In this document: piece by piece, positions 28,535 through 41,123 of the stretch | Position numbering within the stretch: the first letter of the stretch is position 1 | Layout: each line of letters begins with the position of its first letter | Origin: Lysobacter alkalisoli | Lineage (GTDB): Bacteria; Pseudomonadota; Gammaproteobacteria; Xanthomonadales; Xanthomonadaceae | DNA: 64,000 bases | Assembly: GCF_006547045.1 (NCBI RefSeq) | Contig: NZ_CP041242.1 | Coordinates: 3,730,001-3,794,000, forward strand | Direction: 5' to 3' | Translations under genes and position numbers: made by a program | The notes under the pieces: generated by a model | Told to the model about the DNA's origin: nothing | Databases searched by the model: none | What the model saw: only the letters and a program-made list of their open reading frames with translations

Positions 28535-30517
28535 TCAACCTTCTTCCAGCAACGCCCGGATCGCGGCCAGCCCGGCCTGAGCACGTTCCTGCTTGCGCGC
28601 GGCGTCGGCTTCCGGGTCGGCACCGTCGCGCTGGATCTCGGCGGCGGGCAGTTCGTCGAAGAAGCGGCTTGGCTGCAGGCGGAGGCGGTCGCCCCAGCGC
28701 TGGGTCTCGCGGCAATGCGACAGCCACAGCTGTTCCTTGGCACGGGTGATGCCGACGTAGAGCAGGCGGCGCTCCTCCTCCAGGCTGCCTTCCTCGACCG
28801 CGACCTCGTGCGGCAGGGTGCCGTCGTCCATGCCGACGATGAACACATAGCGGAACTCCAGTCCCTTGGCCGCGTGCAGGCTCATCAACCGGACCTGGTT
28901 GCCGGCCTCGCCCTTGTCGGCGTGCGAGAGCAGCGCGAGCTGTGCGGCGAGTTCGCCGGGACCGCTGCTCTTGCCGCCTTCGAACCAGTCGGCCAGTTCT
29001 TCGAGGTTGGCCTTGCGGCGCTGGAACGTCGCCTCGTCCTTGCACTGGGCGCGGATCGCGGTGAGCAGGCCGCTCTTCTCGGCCAGCACCCGCACCAGCT
29101 CGGCCGGCGGCAGGCGCTGCGCATCGCCGCGCAGCGAGCGGATGATGCCGATGAAGCCATCGAGCGCATTGCCGGCCCGCGGCGCGAGCTGCTTGAGCAC
29201 GCCGACCGACTCGGCCGCACGCGACATCGGCATGTGCGCCTTCTGCGCCATCTCGGCCAGTTTCGACAATGTGGTCGCACCGACCTCGCGCTTCGGCGCC
29301 TGTACCGCGCGCAGGAACGCCGCGTCGTCGTCGGGGTTGGCGATGAGCCGCAGCCAGGCCAGCGCGTCCTTGACCTCACCGCGTTCGAGGAAGGCGGTGC
29401 CGCCGGTCAGGTGGTAGGGCACCTTCAGCAACTGCAACGACTTCTCCAGCGCGCGGCTCTGGTGGTTGCTGCGGAACAGGATGCAGAAGTCGCTCCACGG
29501 CGCCTGTTTGGCGGTGGCGATGAAGTGGATCTCGGCGGCGACCTTCTCGGCCTCGTGGGCGCCGTCCTTGCATTCCCAGATGCGGATGCGCTCGCCGTCG
29601 GCGTTGTCGCTCCACAGGGTCTTGAGGTGCTCGTGCGGGTTGTGCGCGATCAATGCGTTGGCGGCGCGCAGCACACGGTTGGAGCAGCGGTAGTTCTGCT
29701 CCAGCTTGACCACTTTAAGCTCCGGGTAGTCGGTACCCAGGGTCAACAGGTTGTCCGGGTTGGCGCCGCGCCAGGCATAGATCGACTGGTCGTCGTCGCC
29801 CACGCAGGTGAACAGACCCTTCGGGCCGGCGATCGCCTTCAACAGCCGGTACTGGGCATCGTTGGTGTCCTGGCACTCGTCGACCAGCAGGTAGCCGATG
29901 CGCTCGCGCCAGCCCAGGCGCGCATCCTCATCGTTCTCCAGCAGCTCCACCGGCAAGCGGATCAGGTCGTCGAAGTCGACCGCGTTGAAGGTGGTCAGCC
30001 GCGCCTGGTAACGCGCGTACAGCTGCGCGGCCTCGATCTCGCGCTGCGAACGCGCCACCGCCAGTGCCTGCTCCGGCGACAGCCCGGCATTCTTGGCGCG
30101 CGAGATCAGGTTGCGGGCGTTGTCGAGTGCGTCGGGCTTGCTGCCGGCCGGCAACAGGTCCTTGATCTGGGCGGCGGTGTCGTCGGAATCGAACACCGAA
30201 AAACCGCGCCGCAGCCCGACCTTGGCCTGGTCGATCTGCAGCATCTTCAGCCCCAGCGCATGGAAGGTGCAGACGGTCAGCCCTTCGGCCGCATCGCCCC
30301 GGATGCGCTTGGCCACGCGCTCCTTCATCTCCTTCGCCGACTTGTTGGTGAAGGTGATCGCCGCGATCCGCCGCGCCGGCATGCGGCCGGAAGCGATCAG
30401 GTGGGCGATCTTCTCGACGATCACGCGGGTCTTGCCGCTGCCGGCGCCGGCGAGCACGAGCAGGGGGCCGTCGGTATGCAGGACGGCGGCGCGTTGGGGG
30501 GGGTTGAGGCCGTGCAT
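28535..30517 (-). CDS. rep: ATP-dependent DNA helicase Rep (UvrD/Rep superfamily 1A)
   Basis: 660 residues (E. coli Rep 673). Rep is a 3'-to-5' helicase that clears replication forks. The start LNPPQRAAVLHTDGPLLVLA, Walker A AGAGSGKTRV, ITFTNKSAKEMKERV, Walker B LLVDECQDTN, CVGDDDQSIYAWRGA, LEQNYRCS and the late LMSLHAAKGLEF and EEERRLLYVGITRAKEQL motifs are all present. It is closer to Rep than to UvrD or PcrA in length and motif detail. It is divergent from the methylglyoxal-synthase-like gene, with a structured repeat in between. Confidence 0.95.
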   Translation of the reverse strand: MHGLNPPQRAAVLHTDGPLLVLAGAGSGKTRVIVEKIAHLIASGRMPARRIAAITFTNKSAKEMKERVAKRIRGDAAEGLTVCTFHALGLKMLQIDQAKVGLRRGFSVFDSDDTAAQIKDLLPAGSKPDALDNARNLISRAKNAGLSPEQALAVARSQREIEAAQLYARYQARLTTFNAVDFDDLIRLPVELLENDEDARLGWRERIGYLLVDECQDTNDAQYRLLKAIAGPKGLFTCVGDDDQSIYAWRGANPDNLLTLGTDYPELKVVKLEQNYRCSNRVLRAANALIAHNPHEHLKTLWSDNADGERIRIWECKDGAHEAEKVAAEIHFIATAKQAPWSDFCILFRSNHQSRALEKSLQLLKVPYHLTGGTAFLERGEVKDALAWLRLIANPDDDAAFLRAVQAPKREVGATTLSKLAEMAQKAHMPMSRAAESVGVLKQLAPRAGNALDGFIGIIRSLRGDAQRLPPAELVRVLAEKSGLLTAIRAQCKDEATFQRRKANLEELADWFEGGKSSGPGELAAQLALLSHADKGEAGNQVRLMSLHAAKGLEFRYVFIVGMDDGTLPHEVAVEEGSLEEERRLLYVGITRAKEQLWLSHCRETQRWGDRLRLQPSRFFDELPAAEIQRDGADPEADAARKQERAQAGLAAIRALLEEG

Positions 30518-30572: not shown

Positions 30573-30892
30573 TTGGTTCTTCGCCCAATCGCGGGGAAAG
30601 CGCCGGGTCTGTTGGAGGACCGGGCGCCGGGAGCGAAGGCCCTTGGATGCGAATGTCCCCCGGCACCGGCCAGGGCCGGTGCCTCCTCCTTGATTTCGCA
30701 CCCAAGGGCCTTCACCCCCGGCGTTCCGACATGACCGGTGGTTCCAGAAGCGCACTCCCAGGGAGGGCCTGCTTCGCGTTCCAGCGTGGCCACGCGATCC
30801 CGACGTGGCCTGCCGGCCTTGACGGCGAAATCAAGGAGGAGGCCGCCGCCACGGGCGGCGGCCGGGGGACATTCGCCGTCAAGGCCGGCAGG
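30573..30892. repeat. Structured dispersed repeat, copy A (two long hairpin modules with a shared internal loop)
   Basis: Between the rep start and the methylglyoxal-synthase-like gene. Module A1 (30625-30723, core 30635-30713): outer stem gaaggcccttggatgcgaa with its complement at 30695-30713 (one mismatch), internal loop TGTCCCCC/TCCTCCTTGAT, inner stem GGCACCGGCC/GGCCGGTGCC. Module A2 (30809-30892) is the same design in reverse orientation: perfect 21-bp outer stem, the same two loop sequences, inner stem GGCCGCCGCC/GGCGGCGGCC. The ~85-nt spacer also folds weakly. A second copy is at 40556-40828. The remaining 30893-31120 holds nothing I can name. Confidence 0.9.
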
Positions 30893-31120
30893 TCGCGTCG
30901 GGACAGCCAGGTAGCGGCGAAAAGTAGCGGCGAGAACCGGCGATCGAACGCAAGCGGCGGCACCCACGCCTTCGCTGAAAGCGAGCCCCCCTCACTTGGG
31001 AGAAGAGCCAGAACAGAGCCCTCACTGCGCCCGGGATGATGTGCTTCGTCAGGCAGCGAGCGCTTGATCGTCGTCATTCGCCCGTAGACTGGAGCTCCTC
31101 CACTTGTTCCGGAGCCGCCG

Positions 31121-32014
31121 ATGCGACTGGGCCTGGCCGCCAACCGTTTGCACCACGCTACCGAAGACGCCGCATTGTTCCGCTGGCTGCGCGCCTGCGA
31201 GTCCGGCATCCGCGAGCTGAAACTCGACCTGCACGCGGTCGGCCGCACCCATGACGCGATCGCCGCGGCCGGCATGCTTGGCGGCTACCCCGGCCTGCGC
31301 CGTTATCCGTACGGCCGCGAGGGCGGGCTGATGAAGCTGGTCGCCGAAGTGGTCGGCCTCGACGACGGCAACCCCGATGGAAGCCGCACCCTCGACGGCG
31401 CGATCTACCTGATCGACCCGGTCGACCCGTCCTCGACCTTCCCCGAGGCGGTCGCACTCAAGCGCCAGTGTGTGATCCACGGCAAGCCGTTCGTGTCGAC
31501 GGTGGCGTCGGCGCGCGACTTCATCGAACTCGAGCGCATCCACGCCGGCTTCGCCCCCGATCCCGGCGCCGACCGCTTCTTCGACCATCGCGGCCAGACC
31601 CTGGCGCTGATCGCGCACGACGCGATGAAGGCCTCGATGCTCGACTTCGCCACCGCCCATTTCGACCTGCTCTCCGGGTTCGCCCGCCGGGTCGGCACCG
31701 GCACCACCGGCCAGCGCCTCAACGAACTGGCCTGGAGCCGCGGCTGGCCGGCCGACACGCCATGGGTGGACCGCTACAAGAGCGGCCCGCTCGGTGGCGA
31801 CGCGCAGATCGCCGACCTGGTGCTGGAGCGGCGCTGCCAGCGGGTGGTGTTCTTCGAGGACCCGCACGTCGCCCGCCAGCACGAGGCCGACATCCAGCTG
31901 CTCGAACGCGCGGTCACCACGGTCACCGACGACGCGGTCTGCGTGACCTCGCCGACGATGGCGGCGCGCTGGGCGGAGGGGGTGGCGAAGCGGGAGATGC
32001 AAAGGCCGCTCTGA
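31121..32014 (+). CDS. Methylglyoxal-synthase-like protein with two tandem MGS domains
   Basis: 297 residues, twice the size of MgsA (about 150). The C-terminal half (about 158-285) is a good MGS domain: LALIAHDAMK (His-Asp pair), GTGTTGQRLNE, SGPLGGDAQIADL (the catalytic-type Asp) and FFEDPHVARQHEADIQLL. The N-terminal half (1-135) matches the same pattern in degenerate form (PYGREGGLMKLV for the GPMGGD motif, IYLIDPVDPSSTFPEAVAL for FFWDP) without the His-Asp pair, so it is probably a non-catalytic duplicate. MGS converts dihydroxyacetone phosphate to methylglyoxal. Activity of this protein is inference. ATG 31121 follows CCGGAG. Confidence 0.85.
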   Translation: MRLGLAANRLHHATEDAALFRWLRACESGIRELKLDLHAVGRTHDAIAAAGMLGGYPGLRRYPYGREGGLMKLVAEVVGLDDGNPDGSRTLDGAIYLIDPVDPSSTFPEAVALKRQCVIHGKPFVSTVASARDFIELERIHAGFAPDPGADRFFDHRGQTLALIAHDAMKASMLDFATAHFDLLSGFARRVGTGTTGQRLNELAWSRGWPADTPWVDRYKSGPLGGDAQIADLVLERRCQRVVFFEDPHVARQHEADIQLLERAVTTVTDDAVCVTSPTMAARWAEGVAKREMQRPL

Positions 32015-40555: not shown

Positions 40556-40828
40556 ATTGGTTCTTCGCCCAATCGGGGGAAAGCGCCGGGTCTGTTGGAT
40601 GACCGTTGCGCCGGGGGCGAAGGCCCTTGGATGCGAATGTCCCCCGGCACCGGCCAGGGCCGGCACCTCCTCCTTGATTTCGCACCCAAGGGCCTTCGCC
40701 CCCGGCGTTCCGACATGACTGGTGGCTCCAGAAGCGCACTCCCGGGGAGGGCCCGCTTCGCGTTCCAGTGTGGCCGCGATTCGACGTGGCCTGTCGGCCT
40801 TGACGGCGAAATCAAGGAGGCCGCCGCC
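40556..40828. repeat. Structured dispersed repeat, copy B (second module truncated)
   Basis: The sequence is clearly homologous to 30573-30850. Module B1 (40609-40707) has a 29-bp outer stem with one mismatch, the same TGTCCCCC and TCCTCCTTGAT loop strands, and inner arms GGCACCGGCC/GGCCGGCACC with two mismatches. Module B2 starts at 40790 with the expected left arm and ATCAAGGA but stops after GGCCGCCGCC, losing its right half. A 3-nt deletion sits in its loop. Confidence 0.88.
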
Positions 40829-40930
40829 CCTGTTTCCGGAGATTGGCACCTTCCCGCCGATCATCGCCTTCGCGAACACGAAGGCTTGCCGCTCCGGATG
40901 GTTTTTCATCAAGCACCGACAATGTGTCCA

Positions 40931-41036
40931 GAAGCCGGCGGCCAGTGCGTTGCGGGACCGTCCGCGACATGGATGTCGCGGAAGAGCCCCATGGATGGGT
41001 TCACGCGTGTCCCGCAACGCACTGGCCGCCGGCTTC
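40931..41036. repeat. Long perfect inverted repeat (27-bp arms) with inner hairpin
   Basis: Arms 40931-40957 and 41010-41036 (starting GAAGCCGGCGGCCAGTGCG) are perfectly complementary over 27 bp. Between them lies a second perfect hairpin with arms CCGCGACAT/ATGTCGCGG (40962-40970 and 40973-40981). No transposase, no clear direct repeats flanking it. It resembles a small non-coding dispersed element; only one copy is in this window. Confidence 0.8.
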
Positions 41037-41123
41037 CCCGCAAGCCCCGCAGCTCCATGGAAAGCAAAGAAACATTTCCAGAGACACCTGAAAACCCACG
41101 CACGAATCCGGTAGCCTGCCGCC

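Follow-up and report, generated by a model that had tools for sequence, protein, structure and literature searches.

A family of hairpins about 100 nt long, in which a near-fixed purine-rich internal loop sits between stems that change in sequence and remain paired, was found in Lysobacter alkalisoli, in other Lysobacterales and in Burkholderiales, two distantly related orders. The structure, the covariation of its stems, the asymmetry between its two strands, its conservation in place, its doublet arrangement and its past mobility in the host genome are established. We give roughly even chances to the reading that these hairpins are single strands, probably RNA, whose loop is recognised by a candidate trans-acting factor and which are kept site by site.

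Two opposed hairpins form a repeat unit in the window

The window, that is, the whole stretch analysed, comprises 64,000 nt of the L. alkalisoli genome (contig NZ_CP041242.1, positions 3,730,001 to 3,794,000), and its features are listed in Table 1. The first-pass annotation of this DNA had described a repeat at 30573–30892 with two opposed modules, each having the loop sides TGTCCCCC and TCCTCCTTGAT flanked by GCGAA/TTCGC. Both modules are present, with these sequences on the plus strand in hairpin A and on the minus strand in hairpin B. The repeat lies where it had been placed, but that extent was too short, the terminal inverted repeats setting the limits given in Table 1. A third module was also located, and its partner hairpin is broken off.

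Table 1 Features of the hairpin repeat units in the window
Feature	Position	Strand	Basis or score
Whole repeat unit, MITE-like, 435 bp, two opposed hairpins	30575–31009		BLAST boundaries against other host-genome copies, and end sequences
Left terminal inverted repeat, GGTTCTTCGCCCAATC	30575–30590	+	End sequences
Right terminal inverted repeat (ACTTGGGAGAAGAGCC on +)	30994–31009	−	End sequences
Hairpin A	30625–30723	− (putative functional single strand)	cmsearch 101.9 bits, E 4.2e-22 on −; 37.7 bits on +
Hairpin A internal loop, 3′ side, invariant (GGGGGACA on −)	30654–30661	−	
Hairpin A internal loop, 5′ side, invariant (ATCAAGGAGGA on −)	30684–30694	−	
Hairpin B	30801–30900	+ (putative functional single strand)	cmsearch 104.5 bits, E 1e-22
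Hairpin B internal loop, 5′ side, invariant (ATCAAGGAGGA)	30830–30840	+	
Hairpin B internal loop, 3′ side, invariant (GGGGGACA)	30864–30871	+	
Second unit, comprising the left terminal repeat (from 40559) and a complete hairpin A (40609–40707, − strand)	40559–40707		100.8 bits
Second unit: hairpin B remnant, broken off within the hairpin (about 40830)	40790–40830	+	GCCTCCTTGAT on − at 40811–40821

Hairpins A and B have the GCGAA/TTCGC collar and the asymmetric internal loop in common and differ in their outer and inner stems, as the annotation had reported, and both fold strongly (z = −7.8 to −10.7 with dinucleotide shuffles as the control). With at most one mismatch, TCCTCCTTGAT occurs six times in the window, a number reached in none of 100 shuffles. 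The first unit is flanked by divergent gene starts, with a minus-strand start codon at 30517 and a plus-strand ORF start at 31121, which is an unusual setting for the hairpin family; the gene starting at 30517 encodes a Rep-type helicase, named by eye from its motifs. The test for intrinsic terminators revealed no T-run directly after hairpin A or B in the window.

Stems covary around a near-fixed loop

Because the host genome alone has just two stem types, recently copied, the deciding evidence comes from other species. The hairpin consists of an outer stem of about 26–29 bp, an inner stem of about 6–10 bp and a small end loop; the asymmetric, purine-rich internal loop has 19 nt, 11 on the 5′ side (5′-AUCAAGGNGGA) and 8 on the 3′ side (5′-GGNGGACA). 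In an alignment of 34 diverse copies, picked by loop and never by stems, standard pairs occupied 95.5% of 1326 stem cells and both sides had changed in 36 of the 39 base pairs. The covariation score was 0.801, compared with 0.202 after shuffling and 0.12–0.16 with slid partners. By this test for a structured RNA, the compensatory changes exceed both the shuffled and the slid controls; orthologous sites show compensatory changes as well.

The reverse test used 292 hairpins from outside the host genome, found by their stems with a loose loop (up to 9 mismatches in 19). The result showed that the loop is near-fixed, reading R-U-M-A-A-G-G-N-G-G-A on the 5′ side and G-G-N-G-G-A-C-A on the 3′ side. 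Mean column entropy in each of two groups was 0.11–0.16 bits in the loop and 1.2–1.4 bits in the outer stem, in a set that required pairing and whose paired fraction is therefore non-independent evidence. The two N positions of the loop covary, occurring as A/G, G/A or C/G, and this joint swapping suggests that they touch each other. A reading of AAGGAGG as an anti-Shine-Dalgarno or Shine-Dalgarno decoy was rejected, as the central base swaps with its cross-loop partner, which is more in keeping with an internal contact of the loop than with 16S rRNA pairing. In Burkholderiales copies (e.g., L183, L186 and L190), A.G and G.A mismatches recur beyond the GAA/TTC collar (GCAGC/GCGGAG), at fixed sites that hold normal pairs in most Lysobacteraceae copies.

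Pairing rules point to one selected strand

When loop-selected copies were read as 5′-AUCAAGGAGGA...GGGGGACA-3′, G.U outnumbered A.C by 92:8 in the outer stem and by 36:3 in the inner stem; over 280 hairpins the ratio was 609:62, with copies related by descent being non-independent. This excess of G.U is confined to readings of the purine-loop strand. An A.C mismatch is a G.U pair on the opposite strand, and therefore the pairing rules bind the purine-loop strand alone. The first-pass annotation had written out the other strand, and it is the complement of its version that is selected. The cmsearch scores of hairpin A on the two strands concur (Table 1). The G.U rule is obeyed by RNA and more weakly by single-stranded DNA (ssDNA). 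One single strand, most likely RNA, thus appears to be selected.

In codirectional gaps, the strand asymmetry was 103:12 for antisense hairpins and 126:7 for sense hairpins (p = 0.15). The antisense asymmetry is equally strong, and the hairpin therefore seems independent of read-through from the upstream gene. Such an antisense asymmetry is not predicted by simple read-through RNA and would require antisense transcription, a promoter of the element's own, or ssDNA.

Hairpins are conserved at orthologous sites

In the related genomes G133, G169 and G184, many elements occupy matching positions, flanked by the same genes. Across 16 orthologous comparisons, 9 of 599 loop positions differed (1.5%), compared with 150 of 1622 in the outer stem (9%) and 168 of 871 in the spacer between hairpins (19%); the near flank differed at 309 of 1745 positions and the farther surroundings, largely coding sequence, at 1292 of 15376. 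The divergence of the loop and that of the spacer are clearly distinct (p = 2e-30). Most of these sites were picked on the basis of a score in both genomes, a choice biased towards intact copies, yet their stems and spacer do differ. In deeper orthologous groups (Luteimonas and Thermomonas), 371 of 1632 stem positions differed (23%), with 100 double changes from one Watson–Crick pair to another, and the loop differed at 8 of 646 positions (1.2%); these comparisons overlap, and orthology was assigned by shared neighbouring genes.

Copying or gene conversion is not easily the cause of this pattern because the stems of paralogues differ. Judged by the sequence comparisons, selection preserves the hairpin copies at their individual sites. 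The spacer is not conserved and therefore gives no sign of a promoter common to both hairpins. The annotation had claimed that structure was selected in RNA or ssDNA, and both the strong covariation and the slow loop support this. It had also named the opposite outcome, an absence of covariation genome-wide and loops drifting like the stems; what was found is strong covariation and a loop that changes far more slowly, also at orthologous sites.

Hairpins occur as inverted intergenic doublets in two bacterial orders

Neighbouring hairpins were arranged as '−+' in 88 of 97 cases and as '+−' in one. All but one of 179 elements lie outside predicted genes (genes predicted with a simple codon model), and the test for REP/REPIN organisation identified inverted intergenic doublets of a palindrome. 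The elements occupy 69 convergent gaps versus 11 divergent ones and are often within 150 bp of gene ends, and single hairpins in codirectional gaps comprise 23 in sense and 16 in antisense orientation. In some Lysobacteraceae copies (31 of 345 hairpins) the motif AGGT(C/A/T)G stands at a fixed 8–9 nt past the stem.

The exact motif was present in 23 of 297 Lysobacteraceae genomes, covering seven genera. A covariance model was built from 34 diverse copies, mostly of other species, and run against xanthomonad genomes, a search that the annotation had proposed. Scoring in the large searches was capped per genome, and the counts are therefore lower bounds: the model matched at least 34 of 198 Lysobacteraceae genomes, at least 63 of 150 genomes in the family of G528 (Comamonadaceae, judged by named matches), a few genomes in two further families of Burkholderiales, and few genomes (at least 3 of 274) in a sample of the whole class. 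Among the matches listed in a scan of named species were Lysobacter, Luteimonas, Thermomonas, Stenotrophomonas and Pseudoxanthomonas, and also Ramlibacter, Rhodoferax, Hydrogenophaga, Polaromonas, Variovorax and Pseudorhodoferax; within genera, presence is patchy, in the manner of a mobile element. In plasmid collections, convincing copies were seen only on Variovorax megaplasmids, and no hairpin copies were found in phage collections. Tandem or alternating arrays, resembling variable-number repeats, occur in L062 (896–1329; three hairpins with a period of about 192 bp) and L196.

The unit has been mobile in the host genome

An exact search of the 3.86-Mb host genome for the two-part loop motif gave 69 occurrences, and the reversed control gave none; the covariance model found 93 hairpins in this genome. 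These are of two types, A and B, which mostly occur together in one unit; an inverted hairpin or an A/B chimera is present in a few units. The test for MITEs showed GGTTCTTCGCCCAAT ends and a target duplication of fixed length in this genome. The lengths of the direct repeats around the units show a sharp peak at 8 bp, with 7 of 38 perfect, and the mean match of the 8-bp flanks was 5.0 of 8, versus 2.7 with shuffled flanks, a value as high being reached in none of 2000 shuffles. The flanks are 77% A+T. Judged by its terminal inverted repeats and 8-bp duplications, the host-genome unit has spread like a MITE. The unit at 30575–31009 lacks a matching 8-bp duplication (0 of 8 positions). Host copies L009–L057 favour A/T-runs, often the T-run of an apparent transcription terminator.

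In the chimeric hairpins L025, L035, L042 and L051, the left arm of one type is joined to the right arm of the other, and the outer stem is therefore unpaired; they apparently arose by recombination through the common loop. Single hairpins inverted in place were observed in the host genome (L038, L045 and L052) and in Thermomonas (L113 versus L119); recombination between the two outer-stem arms would produce such inversions. Directly next to the incomplete hairpin B in the second unit lies another MITE-like repeat (GTGTCCAGAAGCCGG..., CATGGATGTCGCGGAAGAGCCCCATGGATGG), at 40836–41050 of the window, and sequences related to it neighbour L033 and L044, starting with the same GGTTCTTCTC end. Given this common end, the two repeat families may share one mobiliser.

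An ISL3 transposase (PF01610) was suggested as a partner by the terminal repeats and is ruled out by the absence of a match in the host genome; G108 likewise had none, and matches elsewhere were weak. No Y1 (RAYT) transposase was found in G169 (40 hairpins, one contig) or G184 (26 hairpins), and these two high-copy genomes rule out mobilisation by RAYT. A search for a partner gene beside the hairpins, by clustering all ORFs and nearest genes, returned only orthologous sites of related species, common families and ORFs spanning the repeat.

Comparison with known elements

Searching the window against Rfam 15 gave nothing at the gathering threshold. The best hits were sub-threshold plant and animal miRNA models, an identity that was rejected since any long hairpin matches such models. 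Nine loci, mostly from Burkholderiales, matched no Rfam 15 family. The annotation's remark that no named element has this loop thus stands for Rfam, with the caveat of one poorly characterised repeat, BRE.

According to the accessible text of its description, BRE (beta-proteobacterial repeat element) is about 75–91 bp long, GC-rich and mostly intergenic, with up to 29 copies, in Bordetella and Comamonadaceae (Polaromonas, Rhodoferax, Acidovorax and Delftia); it forms tandem copies and is contained in the sRNA BprJ (Hot et al., 2011; PMC3110155). Compared by description with that text, BRE fits the hairpin family in length, G+C, intergenic site, copy number and taxa, and its almost adjacent tandem copies fit more poorly. 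The accessible account contains no secondary structure, invariant loop, covariation, inverted doublets or Lysobacteraceae (PMC3110155). BRE and the hairpin family may be identical, on a comparison by description with a partly accessible source. A BvgA query for Bordetella, which had no positive control, gave no match in 399 and 239 genomes of two families. BprJ was reported to change in an RNase III mutant (PMC8386462); if BRE is the hairpin family, BprJ, as far as the accessible text describes it, supplies evidence of expression. Even in that case, the structure, the loop, the strand rule, the doublets, the selection in place and the occurrence in Lysobacteraceae would be new by the accessible texts.

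REP/BIME and REPIN elements with RAYT are likewise inverted, intergenic, multi-copy palindromes of alternating orientation. Unlike them, the family described here has a hairpin of about 100 nt, an invariant loop of 11/8 nt and free stems, and requires no RAYT. Integron attC sites also act as a folded single strand, in which stems vary and some bases are unpaired. However, attC sites conserve stem boxes, whereas the hairpin family has a fixed loop between variable stems. NEMIS/Correia and ERIC differ from it in their conserved stem sequences and narrower host groups. Like the hairpin family, they are MITE-like or palindromic intergenic repeats by the accessible text of the BRE paper (PMC3110155).

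Proposed function and alternative explanations

In the explanation that we prefer, the stems would serve only to present the constant purine-rich loop; a constant loop held out by free stems is built like a recognition site. A trans-acting factor, either a protein or an RNP, would dock on the loop in any transcript with the purine-loop strand, and a doublet would offer a loop site whichever strand is transcribed. The loop is probably such a docking site, and the strand probably RNA rather than ssDNA. Hairpins would travel as inverted doublets, in the host as a MITE-like unit with terminal repeats of about 16 bp and 8-bp target duplications; the doublets would come to rest between genes, for the most part close to gene 3′ ends, and selection would then keep each site. 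More specifically, and with confidence a shade short of even, we propose a new class of structured RNA domain in Lysobacterales and Burkholderiales, whose G-rich loop (GG-N-GG / GG-N-GG) would bind a conserved factor and which would be present in inverted doublets, by the dozens and in either orientation, under selection at each site. In this loop, G.G and A.G pairs may be stacked, or the bases may form a two-layer quadruplex. The GG doublets, four in number and invariant, make the quadruplex feasible, and we offer it as a guess; RNA quadruplexes of GGA repeats are known, e.g., r(GGAGGAGGAGGA), from the accessible part of PMC7080826.

It is possible, although we think it unlikely, that the family is a REPIN-like DNA element, in which the purine-loop strand is ssDNA that folds while the DNA is replicated or excised and serves as the binding site of an enzyme moving or maintaining the doublets. 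The intergenic inverted doublets, the selection independent of orientation, the tandem clusters, the single-hairpin inversions in the host (L038, L045 and L052) and the signature of mobility would all follow, but G169 and G184 have no Y1 transposase, the host genome has no ISL3 match, and selection at fixed orthologous sites is unexpected of a purely mobile unit. Another reading is that the repeat is an ordinary MITE with incidental hairpins, conserved by recent copying or gene conversion. The host genome, with two stem types only, near-identical copies, terminal repeats and 8-bp duplications, looks this way; however, unrelated stems hold the same loop in other genomes, and orthologues retain the loop despite diverged spacers and stems, whereas copying or conversion would homogenise the stems too. 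We therefore disfavour this account as highly improbable.

A cis-acting element at the 3′ end of adjacent mRNAs, in sense orientation and serving stability, processing or Rho-dependent termination, would explain the intergenic location, the excess of convergent over divergent gaps and the frequent position within 150 bp of gene ends. It is rather improbable, because no T-run follows the window hairpins, codirectional singles are only 23 sense versus 16 antisense with an equal asymmetry in antisense, and the window copy lies between two divergent gene starts. CsrA prefers GGA, usually in terminal loops, and two near-invariant GGA triplets, one on each loop side, bracket the inner stem, each of their bases being kept in about 96–99% of hairpins; with many copies per genome, the hairpins could be a sponge-like decoy of CsrA/RsmA. 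What CsrA requires is, however, far smaller than a 19-nt loop, and we consider such a decoy very doubtful.

The usual view of intergenic palindromic repeats is that they are passive or selfish DNA. The evidence from this family is that the precise single-stranded structure of each copy is maintained, in two bacterial orders and with up to 93 copies per genome. On the preferred reading, with a loop docked by a trans-acting factor, the maintained hairpins suggest that environmental and plant-associated bacteria have an unrecognised system for binding RNA or ssDNA, and the 19-nt loop would be a ready bait for finding the candidate partner.
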